Assembly: GCF_900110075.1 (NCBI RefSeq)
Contig: NZ_FOCJ01000001.1
Span: 620,001 to 684,000 of the forward strand
Source of the DNA: Paenibacillus sp. OV219
Lineage (GTDB): Bacteria; Bacillota; Bacilli; Paenibacillales; Paenibacillaceae
Length of the DNA stretch: 64,000 nt
Direction of reading: 5' to 3'
Position 1 is the stretch's first letter. The number at the start of each line of letters is the position of its first letter. The notes under the pieces were generated by a model. The model saw only the letters and a list, made by a program, of their open reading frames with translations. It had not been told where the DNA came from and made no database searches. The position numbers were made by a program, and so were the translations under genes. This document shows positions 14,534 through 56,999 of the stretch, piece by piece.

Positions 14534-14643
14534 TAACGATACTATTGTTTAAGTAAAAATAGACAAAAATGGCGAAATATCCGCAGAATTGGTGGTGTCG
14601 GGCAGTGAAGTTGAAATTCAAGATGAACGCGAACAAGGAAAAA

Positions 14644-29878: not shown

Positions 29879-31725
29879 GGTTTCGCAGAAGCATAAATAT
29901 CCGTTCGCTCCTAATGCTGCTATGCCTACTGCTTATTATTGGGCCAGGCTCGTTACTAGCAGGTGTGGGACATGCCTCCGCGCAAGTGATGCGCGTAGCT
30001 GTCGTCAAAGAGATGAGCGGTACGGTGAACGTACTCAAATCAGGTGGAGCGAAGTCGTTTAAGGCATTCCGCAATATGAGCTTGAACGAGGGAGATCAAA
30101 TTGCAACAGGCAAAGACGGTAAAGTCACACTAACGCTGTCGAGCAGCGCTGCAGATACAGACGAGATCAATATTAGTAATGGCTCGCAAGTCACGTTCTC
30201 GAAGATGAAGGACAGCAGCGGTGCGAAGACGAAGATGAGCGTTTGGGCCGGTTCACTCTGGGTGAAGGTGAAATCCGTCTCCAACGCGAGCGATCAGTTC
30301 GAAATCGAAACGCCAACGTCCATTATGGGTGTACGTGGAACACATTTCTTCGTGAAGGTGAATCCATTGACAGGTGAGACGAGTGTATTCTTGGCAGCAG
30401 GCGTAGTCGAATCGAGCACGAATAAAGACCGGCATAATACTGACATCGACTCGGGTATGTCGAACACGGTAACGATCTATCCGTCGCAGCAGTTAGGTGA
30501 AGCGAATGGCGAGGATGGGGTTGAAACTTCCATTTCTATTGTAGACCTCGCTACTTTTGTTAACGGGGCCTCACCGGACGTGGTGAAAGCGATTCTGCAA
30601 GATGCGGTATCCATTGCTGCGGAACAGAAGCAGATGATTGAGAAGGCGAAAGAGAGCTTGAATACAGAGCAGAACAAGGATAACTTTGGCGGCCTCATTC
30701 AAACACCTGAAGATTTGCGGCGCATGACTGATAATTTAACAAACCTAGTATCTATTATTGCAAAAGAAGCGATCGCGCAGAAAAAGGTAACTCAAGACGT
30801 GATCGATCAAATTAATAAAGACGCTGGCACTAAGTTGATTGATTCGAAGACGACCAGCGAACTCCAGCTGACCGATATCGAGAAGAAGGCGCAGGAGCAA
30901 GCGAAAAAATTCGAAGAGCTTCAGAAGCAGCTGGCTGACAAAAAGGCGGAAGAGCAGAAGAAAAAACAGGAATTGCTGCAAGAAGCCATCAAGAAGGCCC
31001 AAGAGCTGAGAGACAAACTGGAAGAAGCGAACAAGCAAGCACAGCAAAAGCAAAAAGAGAAGGATAATCAAACCTACTACAATCAACAAACACTTGAAGA
31101 ACAGAAGCGAATTGACGAAAATCGTAATACTGCCGGATTGCCAAGTATTCCGACGACCGGTGGAACGAACAGCGGATCAGGAAGCGTAGGCACGAATTCG
31201 ACGGTAAGCTTGCAGGCGACTGCGAATGGGACAATTTCGTCTGGTTTCATCGACCTCGGCGTCGTGTTTAAGGGATTCACAGGATCGAAGAAAATTATGG
31301 GCTATCAAATTGAAGTGGAATATGACAATCAGCTTGCTCAGTTTGCGACTGGCGCGTTTGACAGTGGAGAATCGCTTATGTACCGCGGCGGTGGTACTTC
31401 CGGCTTTGTCGTTGAACCGGAGAACCAAACTGTAGAAGAGGCGAACAGCGTTGATGATTATCGTATCATCGAAGGAACTAACCATCACTCAACATTGCTA
31501 TATACCGTTGTGAAAATCAGCGGCAGTTCGGTAGAGATCAACGAGGAGACAACAGTTGTCCGGCTTCCGTTCCTACTAGGCATGCATACCGAGTTTCCAC
31601 CTGCGCCAGCAACGGTGCCAGTGACGTTCAAAATCAAATCTGTAACGGCTGTAGATCAGAACGGCAATGCAGTCGCAGTTATTAAAGGTTCAGATCTAAC
31701 TGTGCAAGTGGCGCAAGTATTATGA
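29875..31725 (+). CDS. Secreted FecR-domain protein with coiled coil and C-terminal beta domain
   Basis: A 616-residue exported protein. A signal peptide (about residues 1-37, cleavage near ASA) precedes a FecR domain (about 55-165: LNEGDQIATGKDGKVTLTL and TPTSIMGVRGTHFFV). Next is a charged helix region (about 240-405) very rich in K, E and Q, likely a coiled coil. The C-terminal 170 residues (about 440-610) look like a cohesin-type beta sandwich. It overlaps both neighbours by ATGA. It has no sigma factor partner, so it is not a FecIR system; the CHASE2 cyclase is the likely signalling partner (inference). Confidence 0.88.
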   Translation: MRFRRSINIRSLLMLLCLLLIIGPGSLLAGVGHASAQVMRVAVVKEMSGTVNVLKSGGAKSFKAFRNMSLNEGDQIATGKDGKVTLTLSSSAADTDEINISNGSQVTFSKMKDSSGAKTKMSVWAGSLWVKVKSVSNASDQFEIETPTSIMGVRGTHFFVKVNPLTGETSVFLAAGVVESSTNKDRHNTDIDSGMSNTVTIYPSQQLGEANGEDGVETSISIVDLATFVNGASPDVVKAILQDAVSIAAEQKQMIEKAKESLNTEQNKDNFGGLIQTPEDLRRMTDNLTNLVSIIAKEAIAQKKVTQDVIDQINKDAGTKLIDSKTTSELQLTDIEKKAQEQAKKFEELQKQLADKKAEEQKKKQELLQEAIKKAQELRDKLEEANKQAQQKQKEKDNQTYYNQQTLEEQKRIDENRNTAGLPSIPTTGGTNSGSGSVGTNSTVSLQATANGTISSGFIDLGVVFKGFTGSKKIMGYQIEVEYDNQLAQFATGAFDSGESLMYRGGGTSGFVVEPENQTVEEANSVDDYRIIEGTNHHSTLLYTVVKISGSSVEINEETTVVRLPFLLGMHTEFPPAPATVPVTFKIKSVTAVDQNGNAVAVIKGSDLTVQVAQVL

Positions 31726-31745
31726 TAAGGAGGGACAGAGCCTTC

Positions 31746-33350
31746 ATGCAGAATAGAATAAGAGGTGCCGCACTGCTGCTAGCCGCAGCGGTGTCGGTTG
31801 GTACGTTTAGCAGCAACAGCTTCGCTGCAGCAGGCAATGCCGCGCAGCCTTCGATTGGTAATATGGACTTATATGAAGTACATACTTTAGCTGGCTCTGG
31901 TGCTTTTGATCGGAATGACGGGAGTTCAGCTTCATCTGCATTCCGCGAGCCGACTTCACTGCTCTACTCCGCGAAGTCGGGCAGTTATCTCGTCGCAGAT
32001 GCTCGCAACCAGATGCTTCGAGGTGTAACCGCTGCAGCAACGACTACTACTTCAGGGCTGTACATCGGAGCCGATGAATATAACGCTCCGCTCGGCAGCT
32101 TGCTTGACGGAGACGCAGCGAAAGCGGCGTTCAACCTGCCGTCGGGGCTCGCAGCAGATAGCGATGGCGTGGTGTATATCGCGGATACAGGCAATAACAG
32201 CATTCGGAGTTTATCAGCTACTGGTGTCGTTAGGACTGTTGCAGGGACCGGAGGGATAGGTTCGGATAATGGCGCTGCAGCGAACGCGAGCTTCTATCAT
32301 CCGCTTGACATTGCGGTGAATAAGGAAGGCGTCATCTATGTCGCAGACACGCTCAACCATGTCATCCGTCAGATTAAAGATGGTCAAGTAACGACATTGA
32401 ACGCACCGTCGAAACGAATTATCGAGTATTATCCGGGGGCCATTGAAGCTGTCGGCGATTATGCGGACGGGCCGCTTGCCCAAGCGAAATTCAATGAACC
32501 TAGCGGCTTGGCGCTCGACTCCAGTGGCAATCTGTATGTCAGCGACACAGGAAATAATCGCATTCGATACATTGATTTCAAGACGAATTCGGTCACGACG
32601 GTAGCTGGCGGGGTAACTAGTGAGAAGCTTAATTATGATGCGGGCTCGCCGTACTCAGAAGGCGGCTTTGCAGATGGAGCTGCTGCAACAGCGGAGCTGC
32701 ATGCACCGCGCGGACTTGCTGTAACGCCGGATGGCGGATTGCTCATCGCTGATTCATTGAACCATGCGATTCGTTACCTCGCGAGCGGAAAAGTAACAAC
32801 ACTTGCCGGTACACCTCAGGAAGAAGGTATTGTTGACGGCATTGCTCGCTATTCCGCTTTTAACCGGCCAACAGACGTTGAATGGGTTGGCGGTGGTGCT
32901 TTCGCGGTTGCAGATTCCGGCAGCAACACCGTTCGTATTGTTGCTCCCTATGCCTCTCCGACAGGTGTCAAGGCAGATGGCAGCATACACCTTTTGTATA
33001 ATAGCGTGGAGCTGAACAGCGATGTAACGCCTGTTATTCAAAACAATGTAACATTCGTGCCTGTCCGCGTGCTGACGGAGAAGCTCGGCTTCAAAGTGCA
33101 ATATGCGAATGGTCAAACGGTGCTTGGGTTTGCAGGTACAACTTATACCGTGAAGAATGGCTCCACTCAAGTGGTCAAACAGGTGGAAGGCGGATCGACA
33201 ACTACGGTGACGCTACCGAAAGCGCCAATCATCTCCAATAACCGGCAGTTCCTGCCTGTTCGCTTCTTCGCAGAAGAGTTGGGACTTGATGTGCAATGGC
33301 TATCCGATCTACGCGCAGTTCTCCTCCGTGATAAGCAGTTCACGAAGTAA
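31746..33350 (+). CDS. Secreted NHL-repeat protein with copper-amine-oxidase-type N-terminal domain
   Basis: A 534-residue exported protein. After a signal peptide (about residues 1-28) come several NHL-type repeats (GLAADSDGVVYIADTGNN, DIAVNKEGVIYVADTLNH, GLALDSSGNLYVSDTGNN, GLAVTPDGGLLIADSLNH) that should fold as a beta propeller. The C terminus (about 420-530) is a Cu_amine_oxidN1 domain (NNVTFVPVRVLTEKLGF, NNRQFLPVRFFAEELGL), which in Firmicutes is a cell-wall module and not an enzyme. AAGGAGGG supports ATG 31746; an ATG at 31722 overlaps the FecR stop. It ends the operon before a terminator. Confidence 0.88.
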   Translation: MQNRIRGAALLLAAAVSVGTFSSNSFAAAGNAAQPSIGNMDLYEVHTLAGSGAFDRNDGSSASSAFREPTSLLYSAKSGSYLVADARNQMLRGVTAAATTTTSGLYIGADEYNAPLGSLLDGDAAKAAFNLPSGLAADSDGVVYIADTGNNSIRSLSATGVVRTVAGTGGIGSDNGAAANASFYHPLDIAVNKEGVIYVADTLNHVIRQIKDGQVTTLNAPSKRIIEYYPGAIEAVGDYADGPLAQAKFNEPSGLALDSSGNLYVSDTGNNRIRYIDFKTNSVTTVAGGVTSEKLNYDAGSPYSEGGFADGAAATAELHAPRGLAVTPDGGLLIADSLNHAIRYLASGKVTTLAGTPQEEGIVDGIARYSAFNRPTDVEWVGGGAFAVADSGSNTVRIVAPYASPTGVKADGSIHLLYNSVELNSDVTPVIQNNVTFVPVRVLTEKLGFKVQYANGQTVLGFAGTTYTVKNGSTQVVKQVEGGSTTTVTLPKAPIISNNRQFLPVRFFAEELGLDVQWLSDLRAVLLRDKQFTK

Positions 33351-33364
33351 AAAATATAAAAATT

Positions 33365-33395
33365 GCCGTCCGGTGCAAACCAGGCGGCTTTTTTT
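33365..33395 (+). terminator. Terminator of the cyclase-FecR-NHL operon
   Basis: GCCGTCCGGT pairs with ACCAGGCGGC (one mismatch, one wobble) around GCAA, followed by seven Ts. Its distal half overlaps the candidate sigma-D promoter of the next gene. Confidence 0.85.
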
Positions 33396-33403
33396 GCCGA
33401 TAT
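33376..33403 (+). promoter_or_regulatory. Candidate sigma-D promoter of the L,D-transpeptidase gene
   Basis: CAAA (33376-33379), a 16-base spacer and GCCGATAT (33396-33403) resemble the sigma-D consensus TAAA-N15-GCCGATAA. The -10 box and the spacing are the same as in the promoter before the chemoreceptor at 14.6 kb. The -35 element lies in the loop of the upstream terminator. Confidence 0.5.
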
Positions 33404-33436
33404 AGTACCTACATAAAGTAAATGGAGGTCCTACCT

Positions 33437-34900
33437 GTGCAGCTGCAAGAAGACACTATGAGCTATTTAAAGCGCTACGTGCAGAACCATCCGAAGAATC
33501 GAATGGCATGGTATTTGCTAGGCAAACAGTATTTGCTCGAAGGGAAAGAAGGCAAAGCAAACTACTGTTTCTTGCAATCAGGCAGTGTATACGATGCTTA
33601 TGAACGTAAAGAGCATCCACTGGCGAATCGGCCGAAAGAATTGATAGCCAATTGGAACCGCAAGCAGAAGCTCATGATGCTCGCGGCTCGCGCCTCGACA
33701 GCGATGTTGTTGCTGCTGGGTCTCATGCTTGTACTGCCAGTCAGCGGGGAGAAGGATGAAGCAGATTCGCTAGCCGATATGGCTACGAATACAAGCCCGA
33801 AGGGGAATAATTCGCAGCAGCAGCAAGCAAGTGCGCCGCAGAGCAATCAGCCGGGGATAAACGTTGCGATCGTAAAGCCAGCCGGTGACAATACAATGGG
33901 CAAGGCGCTAAGTAGCTTATTGAAAGGAACAGGGGCTAAACAGCAAACCGGCATAGCCGCGATGCTTCAGCAAGCCGGCAAGTGGCGTAAATGGACGGGA
34001 GAGACACGTCTGCTTGCGATGACGAAGCGGCAAGGCGAAGCGGATCCGGTCGCAGTCAGTTTGCTTGATGGCGCTGCATGCGACTGTCAGCCAGGCGATT
34101 CTAGTACGGCATATAAGTTATATGAGAAATGGAGCGCACAGCAAGAGCAGCAATGGACGCTGCGCAGCGCGATTGCACAGTATCGTGCTATCAATAAAGT
34201 GTGGCCATCCGGTATGGATGATCTGACACGTCCGTACCCGGACAACGTGCTGGCAGGTACTTCGCCAGCAATGAAGCAACTGTTCCCGAAACTGCTTAGA
34301 GAGCTGAAAGCCGGGGCACGTCCTGATGCGTCAGAAGGCAATAAAGAAGATAAGCCGTCGTCTGGAAATGGGTCAGCGGCGGGAGGTGCGAGTGACGCGT
34401 CGGGGGCAGGAACGAAGAGTGAAGCAACCTCTGGAGAAGCGGATACGAAGCTGCCGTCAGAGCCGCTCTCGATCGTAATTGATAAAGATAGTCACCAGCT
34501 CGCCGTAATCAGCGGAGATGTCATTGTGCGTAGCTATAACGTAGGGCTAGGTGGCGAGAAGACGCCAGCTGGAAGCTTTACTATTAGTGAGAAGGTCCGT
34601 CACCCGAACGGGCGGGATGATAGCGAATTCGGCAGCAGGGGGATGACAATGTCGAAGACGTTGTACGCCATTCACGGAACGAATGATCCAGATAGCATCG
34701 GGAAGGATGAGTCGCATGGCTGTGTACGGATGAATCAGAAGGATCTCGAGGAGCTGTATGATTTGGTGCCGCTGGGCACGAAGGTGACAATAAAAAGCGG
34801 CGTTCTCCCCGCCGGAGCACCCCAGGCTTCCGAGCGTTTCCGCTTGAAGCCGGTGCAGGACGAAACGAACACCGCTGTTGTTTATAAGTGGCTTGATTAG
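33437..34900 (+). CDS. Membrane-anchored L,D-transpeptidase (YkuD domain)
   Basis: A 487-residue protein. The first 80 residues are cytoplasmic with a TPR-like stretch (HPKNRMAWYLLGKQYLLEGK). One transmembrane helix (about 83-102) is followed by a low-complexity, Ser/Gly/Gln-rich linker, and the C terminus (about 340-455) is a YkuD catalytic domain with the histidine in AIHGTNDPDSIG and the nucleophile cysteine in SHGCVRM. It should form 3-3 cross-links or attach peptides in peptidoglycan. The GTG at 33437 is supported by GGAGGT seven bases upstream. It is monocistronic, behind a possible sigma-D promoter. Confidence 0.88.
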   Translation: MQLQEDTMSYLKRYVQNHPKNRMAWYLLGKQYLLEGKEGKANYCFLQSGSVYDAYERKEHPLANRPKELIANWNRKQKLMMLAARASTAMLLLLGLMLVLPVSGEKDEADSLADMATNTSPKGNNSQQQQASAPQSNQPGINVAIVKPAGDNTMGKALSSLLKGTGAKQQTGIAAMLQQAGKWRKWTGETRLLAMTKRQGEADPVAVSLLDGAACDCQPGDSSTAYKLYEKWSAQQEQQWTLRSAIAQYRAINKVWPSGMDDLTRPYPDNVLAGTSPAMKQLFPKLLRELKAGARPDASEGNKEDKPSSGNGSAAGGASDASGAGTKSEATSGEADTKLPSEPLSIVIDKDSHQLAVISGDVIVRSYNVGLGGEKTPAGSFTISEKVRHPNGRDDSEFGSRGMTMSKTLYAIHGTNDPDSIGKDESHGCVRMNQKDLEELYDLVPLGTKVTIKSGVLPAGAPQASERFRLKPVQDETNTAVVYKWLD

Positions 34901-46652: not shown

Positions 46653-47066
46653 ATGAAGAAACTATACGGACTTATTTTGTTTGGTTATACGTTATTACTC
46701 TTTTACTCGATGTTTATCGGTTTTGGCCGGTCAGCGGTTCATTCGACGGAATACCGATACAACGTCATTCCGTTTCAAACTGTCCGCTTATACTTTGAGC
46801 ATGCGGACAGCTTCGACGCGAAATATTGGATCGTCAATATGGTAGGCAATGTGGCGGTGTTCATGCCGTTCGGGCTCATGCTGCCGTACTTGCTGGGAAT
46901 GAAGCTTATCCGATTTTCGCTGCTGTTTATTACGTCGCTCTTCGTGCTGGAGCTGTTGCAGCTACTACTTCATCGCGGTAGCTTTGATATTGACGATGTC
47001 ATTCTCAATACGATCGGTGCGTGGCTAGGATACTTGCTATATCGGATAAGTGTGAAGCGGAGCTAG
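46653..47066 (+). CDS. VanZ-family membrane protein
   Basis: A 137-residue protein with about four transmembrane helices and the VanZ landmarks NVIPFQTVRLYFEH, NMVGNVAVFMPFGLMLP and FDIDDVILNTIGAWLGYLL. VanZ proteins confer low-level teicoplanin resistance in some hosts, but most homologues have no known function. AAGGGGA upstream of ATG 46653. The HisA gene starts 33 bases later. Confidence 0.88.
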   Translation: MKKLYGLILFGYTLLLFYSMFIGFGRSAVHSTEYRYNVIPFQTVRLYFEHADSFDAKYWIVNMVGNVAVFMPFGLMLPYLLGMKLIRFSLLFITSLFVLELLQLLLHRGSFDIDDVILNTIGAWLGYLLYRISVKRS

Positions 47067-47098
47067 AAGCTAGAGCTAACGAGAGAAGAGGGAACATA

Positions 47099-47863
47099 AT
47101 GAAATTCAGACCTTGTATCGACCTACATAAAGGGAAAGTGAAACAAATTGTCGGTGAGACATTAAGCCAGAACGATGATCAGCAAGTCGTCGAGAACTTC
47201 GTATCGGAGCATGATTCAGCGTATTATGCCGACATGTTCAAGCGTGATCAGCTTACTGGAGGTCATGTCATCATGCTCGGTGGCGGCAATGAGGAAGCGG
47301 CGTTGGCAGCGCTTCGCGCGTATCCAGGCGGACTCCAGATCGGCGGAGGCATTCGCGCCGAGAATGCCGCGCAGTATCTCGAAGCAGGCGCTTCGCATGT
47401 TATCGTCACCTCCTATATTTTCCGCGACGGCGAGCTTGATATGGACAACCTGCAGCGTATCGTCTCTGAGGTCGGCAAGGAGAGGCTGGTCATTGACCTG
47501 AGCTGCAAGAAGCGGGATGACAAATGGTTCGTCGTTACGAATCAATGGACAACCTTCAGCACCTTTGAAGTGAAAGCCTCACATCTTGAAGAGCTTGCGC
47601 AATATTGCGATGAATATCTCGTTCATGCCGTTGATGTTGAGGGCAAACGGAGCGGAATTCTAACAGATCTAGTAGAGCAGCTGGCTCAATGGGTGACGAT
47701 TCCGACGACATATGCAGGCGGTGCCCGTTCATTCGACGATCTCGAATTGTTCCGCAAGCTCGCCGCTGGCAAGCTTGATATTACTATCGGCAGTGCGCTT
47801 GATATTTTTGGTGGCTCAATGTCCTATGAGGATGTTGTAGCTTTCTGTAAACCGCGTGCGTAG
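47099..47863 (+). CDS. hisA: HisA-type isomerase, eukaryotic HIS6-like
   Basis: A 254-residue TIM barrel that should isomerise ProFAR to PRFAR in histidine synthesis. Several stretches look like fungal His6 rather than bacterial HisA: CIDLHKGKVKQIVGETL, a loop around EHDSAYYADMF, IVIDLSCKKR-like LVIDLSCKKRDDKW, and TIGSALDIFGGSMSYEDV. The usual bacterial start with a D at position 8 is present as PCIDLHKG. AAGAGGG supports ATG 47099. No other his gene is in the window, so it stands alone. Confidence 0.85.
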   Translation: MKFRPCIDLHKGKVKQIVGETLSQNDDQQVVENFVSEHDSAYYADMFKRDQLTGGHVIMLGGGNEEAALAALRAYPGGLQIGGGIRAENAAQYLEAGASHVIVTSYIFRDGELDMDNLQRIVSEVGKERLVIDLSCKKRDDKWFVVTNQWTTFSTFEVKASHLEELAQYCDEYLVHAVDVEGKRSGILTDLVEQLAQWVTIPTTYAGGARSFDDLELFRKLAAGKLDITIGSALDIFGGSMSYEDVVAFCKPRA

Positions 47864-47917
47864 TGGTACGCCATAAAGAGACACCTTGCAAGGATTGAGC
47901 GTGGATCATCTAGTACG

Positions 47918-47962
47918 AAAACAGCCCTAAATTGCTGGAAATAGCAGCCAGGGGCTGTTTTT
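47918..47962 (+). terminator. Rho-independent terminator
   Basis: AAAACAGCCC pairs with GGGCTGTTTT, with an inner GCTGG/CAGC stem, followed by Ts. It ends the hisA-like transcript. Confidence 0.85.
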
Positions 47963-48059
47963 GTGCATATTTGTGGTTGCGCTAACACTTTCCAAATAAA
48001 ATCGTTCCAAAATCACACAATCCAAACGATCATTAAGAACTTACCAAATACTTAGCCCT

Positions 48060-48065
48060 TATAAT
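48060..48065 (+). promoter_or_regulatory. Candidate -10 of the chemosensory operon
   Basis: A perfect TATAAT precedes the operon by about 70 bases. The -35 at the right spacing (GAACTT) is poor, so the promoter may need an activator. No sigma-D-like box was seen here. Confidence 0.5.
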
Positions 48066-48098
48066 CAGTGTAGCGGTATTACGAAGGAGGAACGCAAC

Positions 48099-48137
48099 TT
48101 GGGACAGACAACGATGCGAATAGGTGATCATACATGA
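48099..48137 (+). CDS. Possible 12-residue leader peptide
   Basis: A TTG start lies eight bases after a perfect AAGGAGG (48084-48090). The frame MGQTTMRIGDHT ends at TGA (48135-48137), overlapping the ATG (48134) of the next gene as ATGA. This is ideal for translational coupling. The frame is short, so its expression needs evidence. Confidence 0.45.
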   Translation: MGQTTMRIGDHT

Positions 48138-48571
48138 TGAAACTACTCGAATTTTATAAAGAATTGTTCGAAGACTCTACGAGCCGATTTGAGCCTGTAT
48201 GGCAAGCCGATCTTGCTTACGCACATGGTTTCCGTTGGACAAAAGATAACTATCCAATACAAGAGCAGTTTCGTATCACTGATATGGGGGATGAGCCCCC
48301 TGTCATTATGTTCTCAGTTGTTCTCCCAGACATGTACTCGGAAACGAATGTTTTTGACGAAGTGTACCGGTATCCGTCGCATAACGATATGTCGATTGTG
48401 CTGATGAGTCAGCAGATCTGGGTAAACGCTTCACTCTGTACGAGCAAGCTGGAGCAATCGGTGCTTGGATTCATTCATCAGGCTCGAAGTGAGATTATGA
48501 ATATTTTTGATTGTGTCATTTTGAAGACAGATGTTGTTCATACAAAAGAAACGGAACGACATATCCGATAA
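48134..48571 (+). CDS. Unknown protein at the head of the chemosensory operon
   Basis: A 145-residue soluble protein that I do not recognise. The N-terminal half contains EFYKELFEDSTSRFEPVWQ and a GFRWTKDNYPIQEQF segment; the middle is VIMFSVVLPDMYSETNVFDEVYRYPS; two cysteines lie in the C-terminal half. No membrane helix or signal peptide is seen. AGGTGATC lies just before the ATG, and the 12-codon frame upstream overlaps it. It precedes cheW by 34 bases, so it is probably an accessory of the chemosensory cluster. Confidence 0.75.
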   Translation: MMKLLEFYKELFEDSTSRFEPVWQADLAYAHGFRWTKDNYPIQEQFRITDMGDEPPVIMFSVVLPDMYSETNVFDEVYRYPSHNDMSIVLMSQQIWVNASLCTSKLEQSVLGFIHQARSEIMNIFDCVILKTDVVHTKETERHIR

Positions 48572-48605
48572 ACATTATAGAGAGATGAACAAGGAGGTCC
48601 GAGCG

Positions 48606-49031
48606 GTGGCCAATTACATCGTAGTAGGGTTGAATGAGGAGAAATTTGCACTCCCAATCACAGACATTCAAGAGATTATCAAAGACATGCCAATCACCGA
48701 AATACCGGCCGCGAGGGCACATGTGAAAGGCGTTATTAATTTGCGAGGTACGATCGTTCCAGTTATCGGGCTTCGCTCGAAGTTTCGCATGATGGAGAGC
48801 CATTCGACGACTTCCTCCCGTATTGTCATCGTCCAGACGCCGGAAGGCGAGCCAGTTGGATTGTATGTGGACCGTGTTGAGCAAGTGGCGTTTTTCTCGG
48901 AAATTTTACCTACTCCAGATGGTATTGGCGGCGCGCAATCAGGCAACTTGTCAGGTATCGGGAAGATTAATGACCAGCTTGTCAGCATTCTGCACTTGCC
49001 GTCTATCTTGAATACTGGAGGAGGTCTATAA
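48606..49031 (+). CDS. cheW: CheW coupling protein
   Basis: A 141-residue CheW. It has the typical start NYIVVGLNEEKFALPITDIQ, the conserved VKGVINLRGTIVPVIGLRSKF, and LYVDRVEQVAFFSEILPTPDG. It links receptor tips to the kinase. The GTG at 48606 has AAGGAGG nine bases upstream and gives the usual N terminus. Its stop overlaps the CheA start as TAATG. Confidence 0.93.
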   Translation: MANYIVVGLNEEKFALPITDIQEIIKDMPITEIPAARAHVKGVINLRGTIVPVIGLRSKFRMMESHSTTSSRIVIVQTPEGEPVGLYVDRVEQVAFFSEILPTPDGIGGAQSGNLSGIGKINDQLVSILHLPSILNTGGGL

Positions 49032-51625
49032 TGAACGAATCATTCGCACTTACATATCTAAGCGTTTTTCTAGATGAATTAGAAGAACAGCTGCAAGTTC
49101 TGGATGAGTCGATTCTAGAGCTCGAGAACGGTGGCAATTCACCGGAAACGATACAGACGATCTTCCGCGCTGCACACACGCTCAAAGGTTCTTCCGCAGC
49201 AATGGGCTTCCAATCGATGAAGGAAGTAACGCATAAGGTTGAGAGTGTATTCGAGCTGCTTCGTCAGAATCGGCTGCAAACGAGCAAGCCGCTCATCAAT
49301 GTGCTGTTCAAATGTATTGATTATTTGAAGGCGAAGAAGGAAACGCTGCGCAAAGGCGATTTCAATGATGAGCCGATTGAAACGCTCGTTGAGCTGCTGA
49401 ACGGCATATTGACCGACCAGCCTGCAGAAGAAACGATAGCGGCGAACGCTGCTGCAAGTGAGGCGGTTAAGGCCATATCGGCGCAGGAGACAGCGATGTA
49501 TGACGGCTGGACCGAAGCCGTGCTTGCCGCTAAAGCGCAGAAACTGGCTGAAGGACTCCATTCATACGAGATTAGTGTGACGCTCGCTGCAGATGTTGAG
49601 ATGCCTACGGTAAAAGCAATGGTTATTCTACGCAATCTGGGCGAGCTCGGCGAAGTTGTCGGCACATCGCCGGAAATCGGCTTGTGGGAGCAGGAACAGC
49701 TTCTTACAGCTGGACCGATCCATTTCTTGCTTGCAACGAAGCATACAGAAGCGCAAATCGTTCGCAAAGTGGAGGAAGCGTCGCAGATTGAGAGCTTCAC
49801 CGTGAAGCAGCTTCAAGTTTCAGGCGGCATTCAGATTGGGACCAAAGCGTCCGTCGTATCTGTGAATAAACAAACAACGGCTTCAGCTCCACCTGCTGTC
49901 AGCGTGTCGCAAATAAGCTCAGAACAAGGGGCAGCAGGACAATCCGACGCCAAAGTGCACATTCAGCAAACCGTACGGGTCGATGTGAACCGCTTGGAGC
50001 ATTTGCTGAACCTTGTCGGAGAATTGATTATTGATAATACACGGATTCGCGAAGTGCGTAGACGGTTCGAGGATCGGTTTAAGCAAGAACCGGAAACGCT
50101 GCTGCTCGGTGAAATTACGGACCACCTGGGCCGTGTCGTTGCAGAGCTGCAAGAAGGTACGATGAAGACGCGGATGATGCCAATCGAGCAGTTGTTTAAT
50201 CGTTTCCCGCGTATGGTTCGCGACGTTGCGGAGCAAGCCGGCAAAGAAGTGACCTTCCAAGTGGAAGGTAAAGAAACGGAGCTGGACCGCACATTGATCG
50301 AAGAGATCAGCGATCCGCTTATCCATATTATCCGTAATGCGATCGACCACGGCTTGGAGCCGCCGGATGAGCGCGAGAAGCTGGGCAAGAACCGCAAAGG
50401 TAATTTACTCCTGCGTGCAAGCCATCAAGAGAACGCAATCGTTATTACGCTTGCCGATGATGGTCGCGGTATTGACTTGCAACGGATTAAACAGAAGGCC
50501 GTTCAGAAAGGTTTCATCGGTGCGGAAGAGGCGGAAGCGTTAACGGATAAAGAAATCATAAGTCTTATCTTCCATTCAGGCATGTCAACTGCGGAGAAAG
50601 TAACGGAGCTTTCCGGTCGCGGTGTAGGGATGGACATCGTCCGCTCCCATATTGAGAAGCTGAACGGTATTATTAACATTGAGACGACAGCTGGCGAAGG
50701 CACCGTATTCACGATAAAGCTTCCGCTTACACTCGCAATTTCTCGTTCGCTCCTCGTGCAGCTTGGCAAGCATACAATTGCGATTCCGCTCACGAATGTG
50801 ATTGAGACTTTCCGTTTGACGCCTGAAGATGTTCAAATCGTGAACAGTGAAGAGGTCTGTGTCGTTCGCGGAGAAATATTGCCGCTCGTACGGATGCACA
50901 GAAGACTTGGCACAGCAGAGAACGATACTGATTCCAAGGGTTACGCAGTTATGATCGGACTTGCAGAGAGACGCGTATGCCTCTATGTCGACAAGCTGGT
51001 TGCGAACCAGGAGATCGTAATGAAGTCGCTTGGCAATTACTTGGGGCAAGTCGCATACGTATCCGGCGCTACCATTATGGGAGACGGCCGCATCGCTCTC
51101 ATTCTAGACGTGAACGCGGTCATCCGCGACTCCGGTGCAACCATTAGCAAGACGAATGCGAATGAGCAGAAGGTATCTGGACGCAAAGTGAAGCTTGTGA
51201 CTTTCGATCTCGAAGATGAGCATTATGCACTCGACATTAATCAAGCGAAAGAAATCATCAAGGTTCCTTCTATACTGCGGATGGCGAACGCACCGGTAGA
51301 AGTGTTGGGACTTATGAATTTACGGGGCGAGTTGATGCCGGTTGTCGATATTAAGTCATGCCTTGGCATGCGCCATACCGAGCCGGATCAGCATTCACGC
51401 GTCATTATTCTGAACGAAGACGGCCGCGATATCGGTATTCTCGTTGATCGCGTTCGTGAAGTCATTCATGTGACCCATAGCCAGATCGAATCGGCTCCGA
51501 AGGATGTTACGATGATCTCCGACCAATACATCGGAGGTATTTGCAAGACAGACGAGCAGCTTGTAATTGTACTTAAGCTTGACAAAATGCTCCGATCAAG
51601 GGGTTGGGACACGATTCATGCGTAA
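49031..51625 (+). CDS. cheA: Chemotaxis-type histidine kinase CheA with an extra CheW domain
   Basis: An 864-residue CheA. The phosphoacceptor is H49 in AAHTLKGSSAAMG. After P1 (1-125) come a P2-like region (about 160-275), a Q/S/A-rich linker, P3 (about 320-385), the ATP domain (about 395-545: RNAIDHGLEPPDER, DDGRGID, GRGVGMDIV), a CheW-like P5 (about 555-705), and a second CheW-like domain (about 715-860: KLVTFDLEDEHYALDINQ). Standard CheA ends after one such domain. Its stop overlaps the next gene's start by eight bases. The usual cheB, cheR and cheY are absent. Confidence 0.93.
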   Translation: MNESFALTYLSVFLDELEEQLQVLDESILELENGGNSPETIQTIFRAAHTLKGSSAAMGFQSMKEVTHKVESVFELLRQNRLQTSKPLINVLFKCIDYLKAKKETLRKGDFNDEPIETLVELLNGILTDQPAEETIAANAAASEAVKAISAQETAMYDGWTEAVLAAKAQKLAEGLHSYEISVTLAADVEMPTVKAMVILRNLGELGEVVGTSPEIGLWEQEQLLTAGPIHFLLATKHTEAQIVRKVEEASQIESFTVKQLQVSGGIQIGTKASVVSVNKQTTASAPPAVSVSQISSEQGAAGQSDAKVHIQQTVRVDVNRLEHLLNLVGELIIDNTRIREVRRRFEDRFKQEPETLLLGEITDHLGRVVAELQEGTMKTRMMPIEQLFNRFPRMVRDVAEQAGKEVTFQVEGKETELDRTLIEEISDPLIHIIRNAIDHGLEPPDEREKLGKNRKGNLLLRASHQENAIVITLADDGRGIDLQRIKQKAVQKGFIGAEEAEALTDKEIISLIFHSGMSTAEKVTELSGRGVGMDIVRSHIEKLNGIINIETTAGEGTVFTIKLPLTLAISRSLLVQLGKHTIAIPLTNVIETFRLTPEDVQIVNSEEVCVVRGEILPLVRMHRRLGTAENDTDSKGYAVMIGLAERRVCLYVDKLVANQEIVMKSLGNYLGQVAYVSGATIMGDGRIALILDVNAVIRDSGATISKTNANEQKVSGRKVKLVTFDLEDEHYALDINQAKEIIKVPSILRMANAPVEVLGLMNLRGELMPVVDIKSCLGMRHTEPDQHSRVIILNEDGRDIGILVDRVREVIHVTHSQIESAPKDVTMISDQYIGGICKTDEQLVIVLKLDKMLRSRGWDTIHA

Positions 51626-53807
51626 ACTTCTAGGCTTGGCCGATCCGCCTGCTCCATACGGTGTGCTCGTCGTCGATGATTCTGCCGTCATGCGGCAGAT
51701 GATTAGCAGGCTGATCGAAAAAGACCCTAAGCTATGGGTGATGGGGACAGCATCCAATGGTCAGGAGGCGCTTGAGAAATTAAAGGTCATGCGCCCTGAC
51801 CTCGTTACAATGGATATTGAAATGCCAGTGTTGGATGGCTTATCTGCGCTTAGCCAGTTGATGGTTGAGAATCCGATGCCGGTCATTATGCTAAGCAGCT
51901 ATACGGATGAAGGCGCTTCCCCGGCAATTGCTGCGCTTACGAATGGCGCGGCAGACTTTTTCCACAAAGACAGCTTGTTCCAGTTCCCAGCCAATGCACA
52001 AATGGAAGAAGAGTTTTTACTACGCTGTCATGCAGCAATTGAGTCCAAGCCGTTCTGGAAAACACTTGACCAAGAGGATCTCGCCAATCACGAGATGAAG
52101 GTGCTGTTAGAGTTCATGACGGGGTGCCTTGCATCAGAGCATACGATTCACGAAGAGCTGAATCAGACGCTGCAGCAGCTAAACGGCTTTTATTGTTCGT
52201 TGATTAAGCAAGCTAATGAGTTCATTGTTACGGAATGCAAAGGCGAGCTGTTAACTCGATTTGGACAATTGAGCCAGAGCCTCATAGGCCACTCGCTTGA
52301 ACATATTGTACCGGCTGAAGTGATGGCGCAGCATTCGGAGTATCTGACTAGAGTGTGGAACGGTGAAGATTGCGTCAGTTACGATACAGAATGGCGGAAG
52401 TATCACTTTACGACCGTTGCTCGTCCGGTCCGTGTTAACGGCATCGTAAAAGAAATTATTGTCGTCACCTTCGAAGTTACAGACCGGAAGCGGATGGAAG
52501 AGAAAATTAAGTTTCTGCTGAACCACGACCAGCTGACGGGGCTGCCGAATCAGAATCAGCTCTTGACGGAGATGGATCGCGCAAAAACGAAATATGGACG
52601 GTTTGCAGTTTTATTCTTCAAATTCGATCATTTCAAACAAATTAATGACTCCATGGGCCATGAAAAGGGCGATTCGCTGCTTCAGCTTATGGCTAGAAGA
52701 TTGAAGCGATTTACTTCTGAAGACACGACGATTATCCGCGCTGGCAGTGATGAGTTCATTTGTGTGATGGGCGGAGCGACCTTCGATACGATTGAACGGT
52801 ATGCCGAGCGGCTGCTGGATGCGATTCGTCAGCCTATTATACTGGACGGATTAGAGATTCATATGACATCAAGTCTCGGCATTAGCCAATACCCAGACAA
52901 TCATACGAATATCGAGCACATCATCCGCTATGCGCATATGGCGATGAATATTGCGCAGACAGAAGGCGGCAACCTGATTCAGTTCTATGAGGCGCGTTTC
53001 CAAGAAGAGATTCACCGCAAAATGGAGATTGAGCGCAGATTGCGTAAAGCGATTGATCGTGAAGAATTTTATTTAAACTATCAGCCAGTCTTTAACGGGA
53101 TTGATCGGACAATTAAAGGCTTGGAATGCTTAATCCGTTGGCAAAGTCCAGAGCTTGGACGCGTGTCGCCTGCGGATTTTATCCCGATTGCTGAGGAAAC
53201 AGGTTTGATCCATGCCATTGGCGAATGGGTCATGCTTGAAGCATGCCGTACGAATAAGCGTTGGCAGGATGAAGGGCTAATGAAGATTCCGGTCGCTGTT
53301 AACCTTTCGACACAGCAGTTCAATGATGGGAAGATTATCGAGCGGATCGAGAACATTCTTCAGGAGACCGGACTTGATCCGAAGTATCTCGTCGTAGAAA
53401 TTACCGAGAGCATGACGATGAACAAGCATCACGCGCTTATGATGCTGAAGAACTTGAAGCGCATTGGCGTATCTATCGCAATTGACGACTTCGGTACAGG
53501 CTACAGCTCTTTAAGTTATTTGAGCGAGCTGCCGATTGACAAGCTGAAGGTTGACCAGTCGTTTGTGAAGAAGATGGACACACACGGCGTGAATGCTTCC
53601 ATTGTCCATACGATCATCACGATGGCGGAAAATTTAAAGCTTGAAGTTATTGCAGAAGGCGTGGAAACTGAAGCGGAATTCGGATTGCTGCTGCGTTATG
53701 GCTGCAATACGATGCAAGGCTACTTGCTTGGTCGTCCGATGGAAGCGGCTCAAATTGCCGAGGAACTCAAATTGAGCAAACCAATTAAAAAGATGAGGAT
53801 CCAGTAA
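51618..53807 (+). CDS. CheB-like receiver fused to PAS, GGDEF and EAL domains
   Basis: A 729-residue response regulator. The receiver (about 15-135) resembles that of CheB: VLVVDDSAVMRQMISR, with phospho-acceptor D66 in TMDIEMPVLDG. A PAS-like region is near 185-295. The GGDEF domain (about 300-465) is degenerate: AGSDEF at 375-380 and K335 in FFKFDHFK where a metal aspartate is expected. The EAL domain (about 475-720) keeps the key residues: E503 (ECL), N562, E594, D623-D624, K644, E680 and Q700. The likely activity is c-di-GMP hydrolysis under CheA control. The ATG is inside the cheA 3' end. Confidence 0.92.
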   Translation: MRKLLGLADPPAPYGVLVVDDSAVMRQMISRLIEKDPKLWVMGTASNGQEALEKLKVMRPDLVTMDIEMPVLDGLSALSQLMVENPMPVIMLSSYTDEGASPAIAALTNGAADFFHKDSLFQFPANAQMEEEFLLRCHAAIESKPFWKTLDQEDLANHEMKVLLEFMTGCLASEHTIHEELNQTLQQLNGFYCSLIKQANEFIVTECKGELLTRFGQLSQSLIGHSLEHIVPAEVMAQHSEYLTRVWNGEDCVSYDTEWRKYHFTTVARPVRVNGIVKEIIVVTFEVTDRKRMEEKIKFLLNHDQLTGLPNQNQLLTEMDRAKTKYGRFAVLFFKFDHFKQINDSMGHEKGDSLLQLMARRLKRFTSEDTTIIRAGSDEFICVMGGATFDTIERYAERLLDAIRQPIILDGLEIHMTSSLGISQYPDNHTNIEHIIRYAHMAMNIAQTEGGNLIQFYEARFQEEIHRKMEIERRLRKAIDREEFYLNYQPVFNGIDRTIKGLECLIRWQSPELGRVSPADFIPIAEETGLIHAIGEWVMLEACRTNKRWQDEGLMKIPVAVNLSTQQFNDGKIIERIENILQETGLDPKYLVVEITESMTMNKHHALMMLKNLKRIGVSIAIDDFGTGYSSLSYLSELPIDKLKVDQSFVKKMDTHGVNASIVHTIITMAENLKLEVIAEGVETEAEFGLLLRYGCNTMQGYLLGRPMEAAQIAEELKLSKPIKKMRIQ

Positions 53808-53892
53808 CGTATGTTAGCTGAATCCTCTTCTTCACTTTTAAAGACTATTGTCAGAATATAACGACTTTTCCAAAATAGCTCAAAGGCTATTG

Positions 53893-53900
53893 GCCTATAT
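53893..53900 (+). promoter_or_regulatory. Weak sigma-D-like -10 box before the chemoreceptor
   Basis: GCCTATAT resembles the sigma-D -10 (GCCGATAA) with two changes; the upstream AAAATA at roughly 17 bases gives only a poor -35. It lies 22 bases before the receptor start. Confidence 0.25.
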
Positions 53901-53921
53901 TTAGAGAGGGGATCAGCAGTC

Positions 53922-55613
53922 ATGAATATTCGAACGAAGCTTTTCAGTTGTTTTGCCTTTATTATTCTGTTAATGGGTTTACTTGGTTATGTTGCTTACG
54001 ATCATACGAATAAGACAAGATCGGCCTACACGGAAATGCTGCAGGACAATGCAGTTCAACTACAATTGCGAGAATTTCAGTTCAAGGTTGCTGGTATTTC
54101 GAACGATGAGCGGGGTTATCTGTTGACGAAAGAGAAAACCTATCTCGATGAAATTGCAGCGAAGGACAAGGAGGCTAGAGCGATCCTGGGCTCCATGCTG
54201 ATTAATCCGACGCTGACGGCTGAGAATAGGAAACAAGTCGAACAGTTGAAAACTGACTATGATCCATTTATAGGCGACAGTGAGAGAGCTAGAGCATTAA
54301 TGGATCAGGGGAAAGCTCAGGAGGCTTACGCACTCCACTTCGGCGATGAGCGCTCTGCCCGCAAAACGATGGATAAGCTCAACAGTGATATGCTCACTAG
54401 CATCACACAGGAGCTTGAAGGTGATAAGAAGCAGCGGGTTGAGGAGTCAGATCAGCAGAACATGATTATGGCGATTCTCGTAAGTATTGCACTGCTACTT
54501 GCAGCTATTCTCGGAGTTCTGCTCACCCGTTCGATTGTGAAGCCGATCAAGATCATCAACCGACAACTCCATGAAATTGCTGAAGGGAGAGGGGATTTAA
54601 GCAAGGAACTGACGATTCGGTCGAAGGGGGAGCTTGCAGAGCTGGCCGGTGCTTTCAACAAGATGTTGGCAAATCTCCGGACGATTCTATCTAAGGCGTT
54701 AAACACAGCTAATCTCGCAGCAAACTCGTCGGAGCAGCTGAGTGCTAGTGCGGAGCAGACGACACGCGCAACAGAGCATATTGTGGAGGCGACGCAGTTC
54801 ATCGCTGTTCGCGCTGATCAAGAGCAGGAGCAGCTTGGTGAAGCGATCCGTGCGATTACGCAGATGTCAGAGGACATCAGCGCCGTGTCAGCCGGCAACG
54901 AAGTGGTCGCGAAGCTTGCTTCTTCTGCTTCTGATGCTTCGAAGCAAGGAGCGCAATCTGTCAATGAAGTGCTTCATGAGATGGAGACGATACATGAAAC
55001 GGTGCAGCATGCGACGGAAGTGATGCAGCTGCTTGAACAGCAGTCCCAGCAAATTGGGGGAATTACGGAGATGATTACCGAAGTGGCAAACCGCACTAAT
55101 CTGCTCGCGCTTAATGCATCCATTGAAGCTTCACGGGCAGGAGAGCACGGCAGAGGCTTTGCCGTAGTCGCTCTGGAAATTCGTAAACTGGCGGAGCAGT
55201 CCAAACTGTCTGCGCAGCAAATTAGCGAGCTTATTGGAGATGTGCGTCTTCGTGTAAGCCAGGCAGCTACCGGGATGAAGACGGTGTCGGCGCAAGCGGC
55301 AAGCGGGCTAGTGCGTACGAATCAGGTAAATCAGATGTTCCAAACGATTGAAGGAAGTATCGAAGCGGTATCCACGCAAGTAAGCGACATCTCGCAGACG
55401 ACGATGGCGCTCTCCGATTCGGGAAGACAGGTGGTCGAGATGGCACAGAGCGTTGCGGAAGCGAGCAATCAAGTCGTCGCATCTTGCCAGAACAACTCGG
55501 CAGCGACGGAAGAGCAGCTTGCGACGATGGAGGAGATTACGTCGTCAACGCTGGAGCTTCGGAAACTAGCGGAGGATTTGAATGATGTTCTTCATGGCTT
55601 CAAGCTTAACTAA
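53922..55613 (+). CDS. Methyl-accepting chemotaxis protein, partner of the CheA cluster
   Basis: A 563-residue receptor. Two transmembrane helices (about 9-27 and 185-206) border a four-helix-bundle/CHASE3-like sensor of about 155 residues containing [24 protein letters not shown] (about 205-260) and the signalling domain follow, with the tip [30 protein letters not shown] is upstream of the ATG. The 114-base gap after the receiver gene has no terminator, so it may share the operon transcript. It is the likely receptor of this CheA. Confidence 0.92.
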
Positions 55614-55634
55614 TGAAGCCATATAGATGTATCC

Positions 55635-55668
55635 AGAGAAGCTGCCTCGCCCGGAGCTTCTTTTTTTT
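55635..55668 (+). terminator. Terminator of the chemosensory operon
   Basis: AGAAGCT pairs with AGCTTCT over an eleven-base loop, with eight Ts behind. It closes the receptor gene. Confidence 0.78.
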
Positions 55669-55781
55669 GCACGTAGGTATTATTTTAGAAAAACAGGATA
55701 GCTTTTCAATCTGCAAGCGATTACAATGAGGGAGTGTGAACAAGCAGTAAACTATTTTCTTGAAAGAGGAGAGGCTGACTA

Positions 55782-56999
55782 ATGGCAGGGAATCGTGCGA
55801 TAGTCTTTGTAGAGCCCGGTAAAGTTGAGGTACGGGATATTTCGTATCCTGATTTGATTTTGCGTGACGGGCCTGGCGTTAACCCACTTAATGTTGGCAG
55901 AAAATGCGAACACGGCGTCATTATTAAAGTCATTACTACAAACATTTGCGGCAGCGACCAACATATGGTGCGTGGGCGGACGACAGCTCCTAGCGGGCTC
56001 GTGCTCGGACACGAAATTACAGGTGAAGTCATTGAGGTTGGGCGTGACGTTGAATTTATTAAGAAAGGCGATCTCGTCTCCGTTCCATTCAATATCGCAT
56101 GCGGACGTTGCCGGAACTGTCGCGAGCGGAACACGAATGTGTGTTCAAACGTGAATCCGGATCGTCCGGGCTCTGCTTATGGTTATGTCGATATGGGCGG
56201 CTGGGTTGGCGGTCAATCCGAGTATGTAATGGTTCCTTACGCAGACTTCCAACTGTTGAAGTTCCCGGATAAAGAACGTGCGATGGAGAAAATTCTCGAC
56301 CTCACGATGCTATCTGATATTTTCCCAACTGGTTATCATGGTGCTGTGAGTGCGGGCGTGAAGCCAGGCTCTACGGTCTACGTGGCAGGGGCAGGTCCAG
56401 TCGGCCTTGCTGCGGCACACTCCGCTCAGCTGCTTGGCGCGGCAGTGGTAATCGTCGGAGACCTGAACAGTGAGCGTCTGGCGCAAGCGAGAAGCTTCGG
56501 TTGCGAGACGGTCAACCTTCGCGAGCATCCGAACCTTGGCGAGCAGATCGACCAGATTCTCGGCGTTCCTGAAGTGGACTGCGCCATTGACTGTGTAGGC
56601 TTCGAAGCGCATGGTCATGGACATGCTCATGGTGAAGCACCGGCAACGGTACTGAACTCCATCATGCAAGTCACGCGTGCCGGCGGACGTCTCGGTATCC
56701 CTGGTCTCTACGTAACAGGCGACCCAGGTGCGGTTGACGATGATGCGAAGGTCGGTACGTTGAAGATTCGCTTCGGCCTCGGCTGGGCGAAATCCCATAC
56801 TTTCGTAACAGGTCAGACGCCGGTTATGCAATACAACCGCGAGCTGATGACAGCAATATTAAGCGGCAAAGCGCAAATTGCGAAAGCCGTTAACGCAACG
56901 CTTATTTCGATCGACCAAGCTCCTGGAGCGTATACGGAATTCGATCGCGGCGCATCGAAGAAGTTCGTCATCGATCCGCATGGCTCGGTAAGACGCTAA
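55782..56999 (+). CDS. fdhA: Glutathione-independent formaldehyde dehydrogenase
   Basis: A 405-residue zinc-dependent medium-chain dehydrogenase of the Pseudomonas PFDH type. It oxidises formaldehyde to formate with NAD+ without added glutathione. The catalytic zinc site includes C in TTNICGSDQHMVRG and GHEITGEVIEVG; the structural zinc cysteines are in CGRCRNCRERNTNVCSN. The NAD site is VYVAGAGPVGLAAAH. A short His-rich loop (HGHGHAHGE) lies in the later half. AGAGGAGAGG is upstream of the ATG. A terminator follows, and it is probably a single-gene transcript. Confidence 0.94.
   Translation: MAGNRAIVFVEPGKVEVRDISYPDLILRDGPGVNPLNVGRKCEHGVIIKVITTNICGSDQHMVRGRTTAPSGLVLGHEITGEVIEVGRDVEFIKKGDLVSVPFNIACGRCRNCRERNTNVCSNVNPDRPGSAYGYVDMGGWVGGQSEYVMVPYADFQLLKFPDKERAMEKILDLTMLSDIFPTGYHGAVSAGVKPGSTVYVAGAGPVGLAAAHSAQLLGAAVVIVGDLNSERLAQARSFGCETVNLREHPNLGEQIDQILGVPEVDCAIDCVGFEAHGHGHAHGEAPATVLNSIMQVTRAGGRLGIPGLYVTGDPGAVDDDAKVGTLKIRFGLGWAKSHTFVTGQTPVMQYNRELMTAILSGKAQIAKAVNATLISIDQAPGAYTEFDRGASKKFVIDPHGSVRR

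Follow-up and report, generated by a model that had tools for sequence, protein, structure and literature searches.

Which signals feed a chemosensory operon that contains a c-di-GMP enzyme, and what does its kinase control? The question is raised by a region (G000:C34:620001-684000) of the 6.1-Mb genome of Paenibacillus sp. OV219. The window, i.e., the whole stretch of 64,000 nucleotides analyzed here, has five plus-strand genes in series, encoding a small protein of an unnamed family, CheW, CheA, a REC-PAS-GGDEF-EAL protein (hereafter the phosphodiesterase, after its predicted activity) and a chemoreceptor. We favor, with moderate confidence, the existence of a second, non-flagellar chemosensory pathway, whose output would be the breakdown of c-di-GMP through putative phosphotransfer and a predicted enzyme activity.

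Layout of the operon and its genomic setting

The features of the operon and its borders, in window coordinates, are as follows.

47912-47966, plus strand: strong hairpin followed by a T-run, in the gap separating hisA from the operon (RNA fold -31 kcal/mol, z -7.4)
48134-48571, plus strand: small protein, 145 aa, unnamed family, predicted type III-chaperone/YbjN fold
48606-49031, plus strand: cheW, 141 aa from GTG 48606 (48531 in the ORF list), PF01584 at 107.7 bits
49031-51625, plus strand: cheA, with Hpt-P2-dimerisation-ATPase-CheW-CheW domains, His49 codon at 49175-49177
51618-53807, plus strand: REC-PAS-GGDEF-EAL response regulator, Asp66 codon at 51813-51815, GSDEF motif, EAL catalytic residues kept
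53922-55613, plus strand: chemoreceptor of the long length class, 4HB_MCP-HAMP-MCPsignal
55622-55672, plus strand: hairpin followed by a T-run, 3' of the receptor gene (RNA fold -15 kcal/mol, z -2.7)

The domain scan agreed with the original prediction that CheW, a CheA with two CheW domains, a REC-PAS-GGDEF-EAL protein and a chemoreceptor are encoded on one strand. The protein said to open the operon has the 145 residues claimed, and its gene starts at 48134 rather than 48099; the frame from 48099 has 12 codons only. Overlapping or close starts had also been proposed; cheW and cheA overlap by 1 base and cheA and the phosphodiesterase gene by 8 bases, and the receptor gene lies 114 bases downstream of the phosphodiesterase gene. 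The most likely start of CheW, judged from the sequence, is GTG 48606, because a ribosome-binding-like GGAGG precedes it; with this start, cheW does not overlap the first gene. The upstream hairpin, which was not listed by the consensus terminator scan, is probably the terminator of the upstream gene, and the downstream hairpin, equalled by 1 of 200 shuffles, is probably a terminator as well. Note that promoter and terminator scans of the window gave no more matches than those of shuffled sequences.

The seven proteins that were scanned from 47021 to 56999 include no CheY, CheR, CheB methylesterase, CheC/D or flagellar protein. The absence of these genes, as originally predicted, thus holds for the neighborhood but not for the genome, where they are present elsewhere. 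Specifically, the one other CheA (C27:649933) is encoded in a flagellar cluster together with FliM, a FliY-like protein, FlhB, FlhA, a CheY-like receiver, CheB methylesterase, CheW, CheC and CheD, and a single CheR is encoded outside the window cluster; methylation enzymes are therefore present in the genome, and none is in the window cluster. In addition, the genome has 10 EAL and 4 PilZ matches, indicating that c-di-GMP signaling is likely in use. As a separate observation, the stretch 27974-34900 of the window encodes, on one strand, a CHASE2-nucleotide cyclase, a FecR-domain protein, an NHL-repeat protein with Cu_amine_oxidN1 and an L,D-transpeptidase (YkuD), and the first three frames of this run overlap end to end.

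The kinase, the output protein and their co-location

We compared 51 CheAs in a phylogenetic tree, from which the broken CheA of G335 and the C81 CheA of G200 (a mismatch between trimmed query and frame) were left out. All 25 intact cluster CheAs in the tree formed one group with support of 100/99, on the other side of the branch from 19 CheAs that include the flagellar CheA of the window genome; four further CheAs formed a nearer group that was still apart from the cluster CheAs. The window CheA is thus not in the flagellar CheA lineage, nor does it lie beside flagellar genes, and the separate tree group ruled out that it is a recent duplicate of the flagellar CheA. The His and ATPase boxes were intact in all 16 cluster CheAs tabulated.

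The phospho-acceptor of the output protein is D66, as had been predicted, when counted from ATG 51618, and this residue was kept in 19 of 19 full-length phosphodiesterases. In a tree of 36 receivers, which has some long branches and a root for drawing only, the phosphodiesterase receivers formed one group (86/92) that was joined with six CheB receivers (87/87), and CheY, OmpR-type and hybrid-kinase receivers were placed apart. The window receiver scored 140 bits against the NCBIfam model of CheB and 57.5 bits against that of CheY, both under the curated whole-protein cut-offs. The receiver alone was 56-60% identical to frames of 371-391 aa in G344, G327, G313 and G298, which are located directly upstream of a flagellar-type CheA, in the place of cheB. 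A simple history suggested by these sequences is that a CheB-type receiver apparently gained a PAS-GGDEF-EAL output.

As for the output itself, the EAL catalytic residues were kept in all 21 sequences tabulated (including a REC-EAL protein of G298 and a GGDEF-EAL protein of G003). The GGDEF domain of the window protein was recognized at 116 bits with the motif GSDEF; among the 19 full-length homologues, the motif was altered in 18 (GSDEF, GTDEF, SSEEF, GNDEF or GGDTF) and intact in one (G326). The presence of the domain and the intact motif of G326 would fit an enzyme that makes c-di-GMP or switches between synthesis and breakdown, but with the motif altered in nearly all homologues and the EAL residues invariant, we regard such an enzyme as very improbable. 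The output protein looks built to destroy c-di-GMP.

A single-sequence search of 245 genomes of the family detected the small protein in 20, and a profile search of 392 genomes of the order detected it in 27; together, these searches gave 47 loci from 41 genomes. In the DNA retrieved around these loci, whose coverage differs, so that absences hold for the stretch only, CheA was found at 22, a receiver-GGDEF protein at 24 (including the split ones of G352 and G354), both at 19 and a receptor at 25, and 12 loci had no part scored. The joint presence of CheA and phosphodiesterase at 19 of 47 loci is more than chance. Next to six of the 12 part-less loci (G335b, G348b, G309, G332b, G316b and G308b) lies a receiver-containing frame of ~1090-1100 aa, and the one profiled, that of G335b, is a hybrid kinase.

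The original prediction depended on an operon order conserved in relatives, and the order small protein-(receptor)-CheW-CheA-phosphodiesterase was indeed kept in 16 of the 19 loci with both CheA and phosphodiesterase; G335 has the same order with broken CheW and CheA frames, and G057 and G067 are rearranged, with CheW-CheA upstream, beyond a hybrid kinase. G284 and G357 have receptor-CheW-CheA-phosphodiesterase without an adjoining small protein, which is encoded elsewhere in G284 and was not found in G357 by the order-wide profile search. CheW and CheA were lost and the phosphodiesterase was reduced to a remnant in G022, and the small protein alone was kept in G066. The order-wide search detected a nearly complete receiver-PAS part in 19 of 392 genomes. 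The small protein is present in 27 of the 392, and in 18 it co-occurs with this part; the hypergeometric p of this co-occurrence is 2e-23, kinship ignored.

Five f6 genomes lack a cluster CheA but retain both the phosphodiesterase and the small protein, with a hybrid kinase and an OmpR-type regulator as neighbors. Three of them were searched for CheA, and each encodes a single one at a distant site. Two of the five, G352 and G354, have a split phosphodiesterase frame (L183:7494-9444 and L184:2466-4585), perhaps as decay in progress. Since the phosphodiesterase is kept in these genomes, the link to CheA is not obligatory, and another kinase may serve the receiver there. Conversely, the Cohnella loci have CheA and the small protein with the phosphodiesterase absent from the stretch, indicating that the output of that CheA is another or a distant one. 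The five f6 loci, together with the CheAs of G141, G239, G318 and named Cohnella that have no phosphodiesterase in the stretch, would be explained if a hybrid kinase or the flagellar CheA served the receiver and the cluster CheA had another target. We consider this quite unlikely, given that the receiver grouped with CheB and not with hybrid-kinase or OmpR-type receivers, that the CheA and phosphodiesterase genes overlap in the window, and that this CheA lies beside the phosphodiesterase in 13 of 19 order-wide loci. The separate CheA group, the co-location at 19 of 47 loci, the CheB-like receiver and the kept EAL residues make control of a c-di-GMP phosphodiesterase by CheA the best reading. 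The wiring first proposed, from CheA through the receiver to the c-di-GMP enzyme, is thereby supported indirectly, by receiver type and kept order, with phosphotransfer as its presumed step.

In a separate observation, the cluster is repeatedly accompanied, in three genera, by a large hybrid kinase (~1080-1100 aa) and an OmpR-type regulator (L122:3223-7213, L130:4798-8787, L028:725-4737 and L177:967-5136); the hybrid kinases profiled have two receivers and an Hpt domain.

Receptor length classes and the input of the kinase

Receptor arrays are held to form only within one length class, according to excerpts of PMC9855816, PMC6759762 and PMC7534058. The receptor encoded at 53922 belongs to the long class, with 138 residues from HAMP to tip and 161 from tip to end; a short receptor (L088) has 117 residues from HAMP to tip, so that the window receptor is three heptads longer per arm. 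Among 24 membrane receptors from such clusters, a count that leaves out two globin receptors without a tip match and the receptor of G335, 20 were short (tip to end 139-146), three were long (the window gene and its orthologues in G077 and G001) and one was truncated. The window genome has 24 matches to the receptor signaling domain (two of them adjoining pieces at C28), of which 8 are short (tip to end 139-141), 5 are long (160-161) and 11 have no match to the tip pattern. The eight short receptors have dCache-type sensors in five cases (one below the Pfam cut-off), 4HB sensors in two and no recognized sensor in one. The window also encodes a second chemoreceptor at 14569-16782 (dCache-HAMP-MCPsignal, 737 aa), whose tip fits neither receptor class.

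We then searched for short-class receptors with a query calibrated on the window genome (short receptors at 207 bits or more, others at 96 bits or less). They were present in all 14 genomes tested of the 24 known to have this CheA, in 2 of 10 genomes with a CheA of the flagellar lineage only (a single one in each of G022 and G171) and in 3 of 5 genomes with further CheAs; the difference between 14/14 and 2/10 has a Fisher p of 6e-5, kinship ignored. With up to six candidates scored per genome, short-class receptors were present in at least 199 of 392 genomes across the order, which ruled out that they occur only with this CheA; since most of these genomes lack this phosphodiesterase, the class is not private and other systems must use it. 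As for the 19 genomes of the order with the phosphodiesterase, short receptors were found in 13 of 13 with CheA beside it, a figure that is partly built in because the only short receptor found in several f6 genomes is the cluster's own. They were found in none of the five without a cluster CheA (G352 and G354, judged from the best six candidates each, G313, G344 and G327), and they were present in the nineteenth, G318, whose CheA is on another contig.

Because the short class accompanies this CheA in 14 of 14 genomes, as opposed to 2 of 10 with the flagellar CheA only, the inputs of this CheA are probably the eight short receptors encoded elsewhere in the genome. By the same token, the scarcity of short-class receptors in genomes where a flagellar CheA was the only one found suggests that the long class serves that kinase, and the receptor at 53922 probably signals to the flagellar CheA. 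Note that two CheAs of Azospirillum share receptors of two classes (an excerpt of PMC6759762), and length class therefore does not settle which receptor pairs with which kinase.

The original prediction had treated the operon as self-contained, with its own receptor as the input of CheA. This became doubtful, as the length class of the receptor differs from that of most cluster receptors elsewhere (long here, short in 20 of 24). A one-receptor circuit of this kind would account for the adjacency of the receptor gene on the same strand, which is kept in G077 and P. taihuensis, and placement beside core components has been used as evidence of pairing (an excerpt of PMC7534058); moreover, its 4HB sensor resembles that of WspA (an excerpt of PMC8846402). 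However, the stretches of G194, G056 and G033 contain no receptor gene, and in Shewanella a single operon encodes two receptors that act in different systems (an excerpt of PMC9855816). We thus consider the one-receptor circuit unlikely.

In the pathway that we favor, short-class membrane receptors would form an array with this CheW and the two-CheW-domain CheA, which would pass phosphate from His49 to Asp66 of the CheB-type receiver. The receiver would in turn control the C-terminal EAL phosphodiesterase; the degenerate GGDEF domain probably binds nucleotide in a regulatory role, and PAS would supply a second input. A stimulus would thereby change c-di-GMP levels and, through them, surface, biofilm or motility behavior, and the receptor encoded at the operon end would more likely serve the flagellar CheA.

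In Cohnella-type genomes, the small protein is encoded beside or near soluble protoglobin-MCP receptors (L035:8457-9467, L036:2681-3700 and L032:2221-3237), which suggests an oxygen or redox input there.

The small protein and comparison with known systems

The small protein is 92% identical to its counterpart in the close relative Paenibacillus taihuensis and has no credible match in Pfam or NCBIfam; hmmscan of 20 members at E-values up to 5 yielded nothing beyond three other families, each matched by a single member at E 0.11-0.16. Relationships by sequence to YbjN and CheW were rejected by hhalign (0.4% probability with E. coli YbjN and 0.2% with CheW, one sequence each). A phylum-wide search of 398 genomes, with at most nine candidates scored per genome, found it in one, the genome of the window; among the genomes sampled, it was found only in the window's order. 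A match of 42 residues in a Flavobacteriaceae bin (L057, E 3e-4) was discarded, as the family profile found nothing there. The link between the small protein and CheA is loose, since the presence of a neighboring CheA, mapped as a label on the small-protein tree, has to change 10 times.

The structural model, of moderate confidence (72.4 at best, with three of five models below 40), has a helix, three strands, a helix, two strands and a helix, and matches the fold of class I type III secretion chaperones and the YbjN/AmyR family. AmyR and YbjN affect exopolysaccharide or multicellular behavior, according to excerpts of PMC5398634 and PMC3181261. Unlike YbjN and the type III chaperones, the small protein has no sequence match and lies beside chemosensory and c-di-GMP genes in a Gram-positive order. 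The model suggests that it is probably a dimeric adaptor that would hold or sequester a segment of a partner protein, the likeliest partner being the phosphodiesterase or its kinase. More tentatively, and on balance we lean against it, the family may be a new class of adaptor with a type III-chaperone-like fold, taken into use by a Gram-positive order, that binds an extended segment and couples whichever partner is present, be it a kinase, a receptor or a c-di-GMP phosphodiesterase, with no known role in secretion. The small protein would then stay while CheA, the phosphodiesterase, the globin receptor and the hybrid kinase come and go.

The Wsp cluster of Pseudomonas contains methyltransferase and methylesterase genes, whereas the window cluster has neither CheR nor CheB. 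The two differ further in that Wsp has a REC-GGDEF protein with an active cyclase and the present cluster has an EAL phosphodiesterase on a CheB-type receiver, with GSDEF; in addition, the window CheA has two CheW domains and no receiver, and the small protein is extra. Wsp is the best-studied case of chemosensory control of c-di-GMP, and its enzyme makes c-di-GMP (excerpts of PMC8846402); in both cases an array whose CheA-type kinase controls, or here would control, a receiver-fused c-di-GMP enzyme is involved, and 4HB receptors occur in Wsp and in several clusters of the present type. By analogy, the pathway would work like Wsp with the opposite enzyme, but it is not Wsp.

Receivers fused to GGDEF/EAL outputs, with both domains in two cases, are also described for ACF-type clusters with CheR-TPR in excerpts of PMC3447774; these clusters share such a fusion with the window cluster, but CheR-TPR is their defining feature and they occur almost exclusively in Gram-negatives, whereas the window cluster has no CheR. 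CheAs with two CheW domains make up ~8% of the CheAs in excerpts of PMC10782961, almost all of class F5 and some of F1, and the window CheA shares their C-terminal duplication but differs in having a P2 domain. Two-CheW CheAs and REC-GGDEF-EAL fusions in chemosensory clusters are thus already known (PMC10782961 and PMC3447774, as excerpted). Among the matches listed in the open-licence literature, in excerpt, none described a system of this kind in Paenibacillus or Cohnella; the P. vortex excerpt mentions cheA, B, C, D, W and Y as well as further receptors, and neither shows nor excludes this system.

Within single genera, the array, the short receptors and the phosphodiesterase have been lost naturally in different combinations, so that the pairing of receptor, kinase and output is testable by genetics. 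If the small protein belongs to a new class of coupling adaptor, the more tentative reading above, the output of the array would be adaptor-gated and not a plain CheA phosphorelay. Within the scope of the searches described here, the small protein would be a first chaperone-fold family associated with genes for chemosensing and c-di-GMP turnover. A Gram-positive order seems to have evolved a chemosensory array that would destroy c-di-GMP, apparently by placing a new output on a CheB-type receiver.
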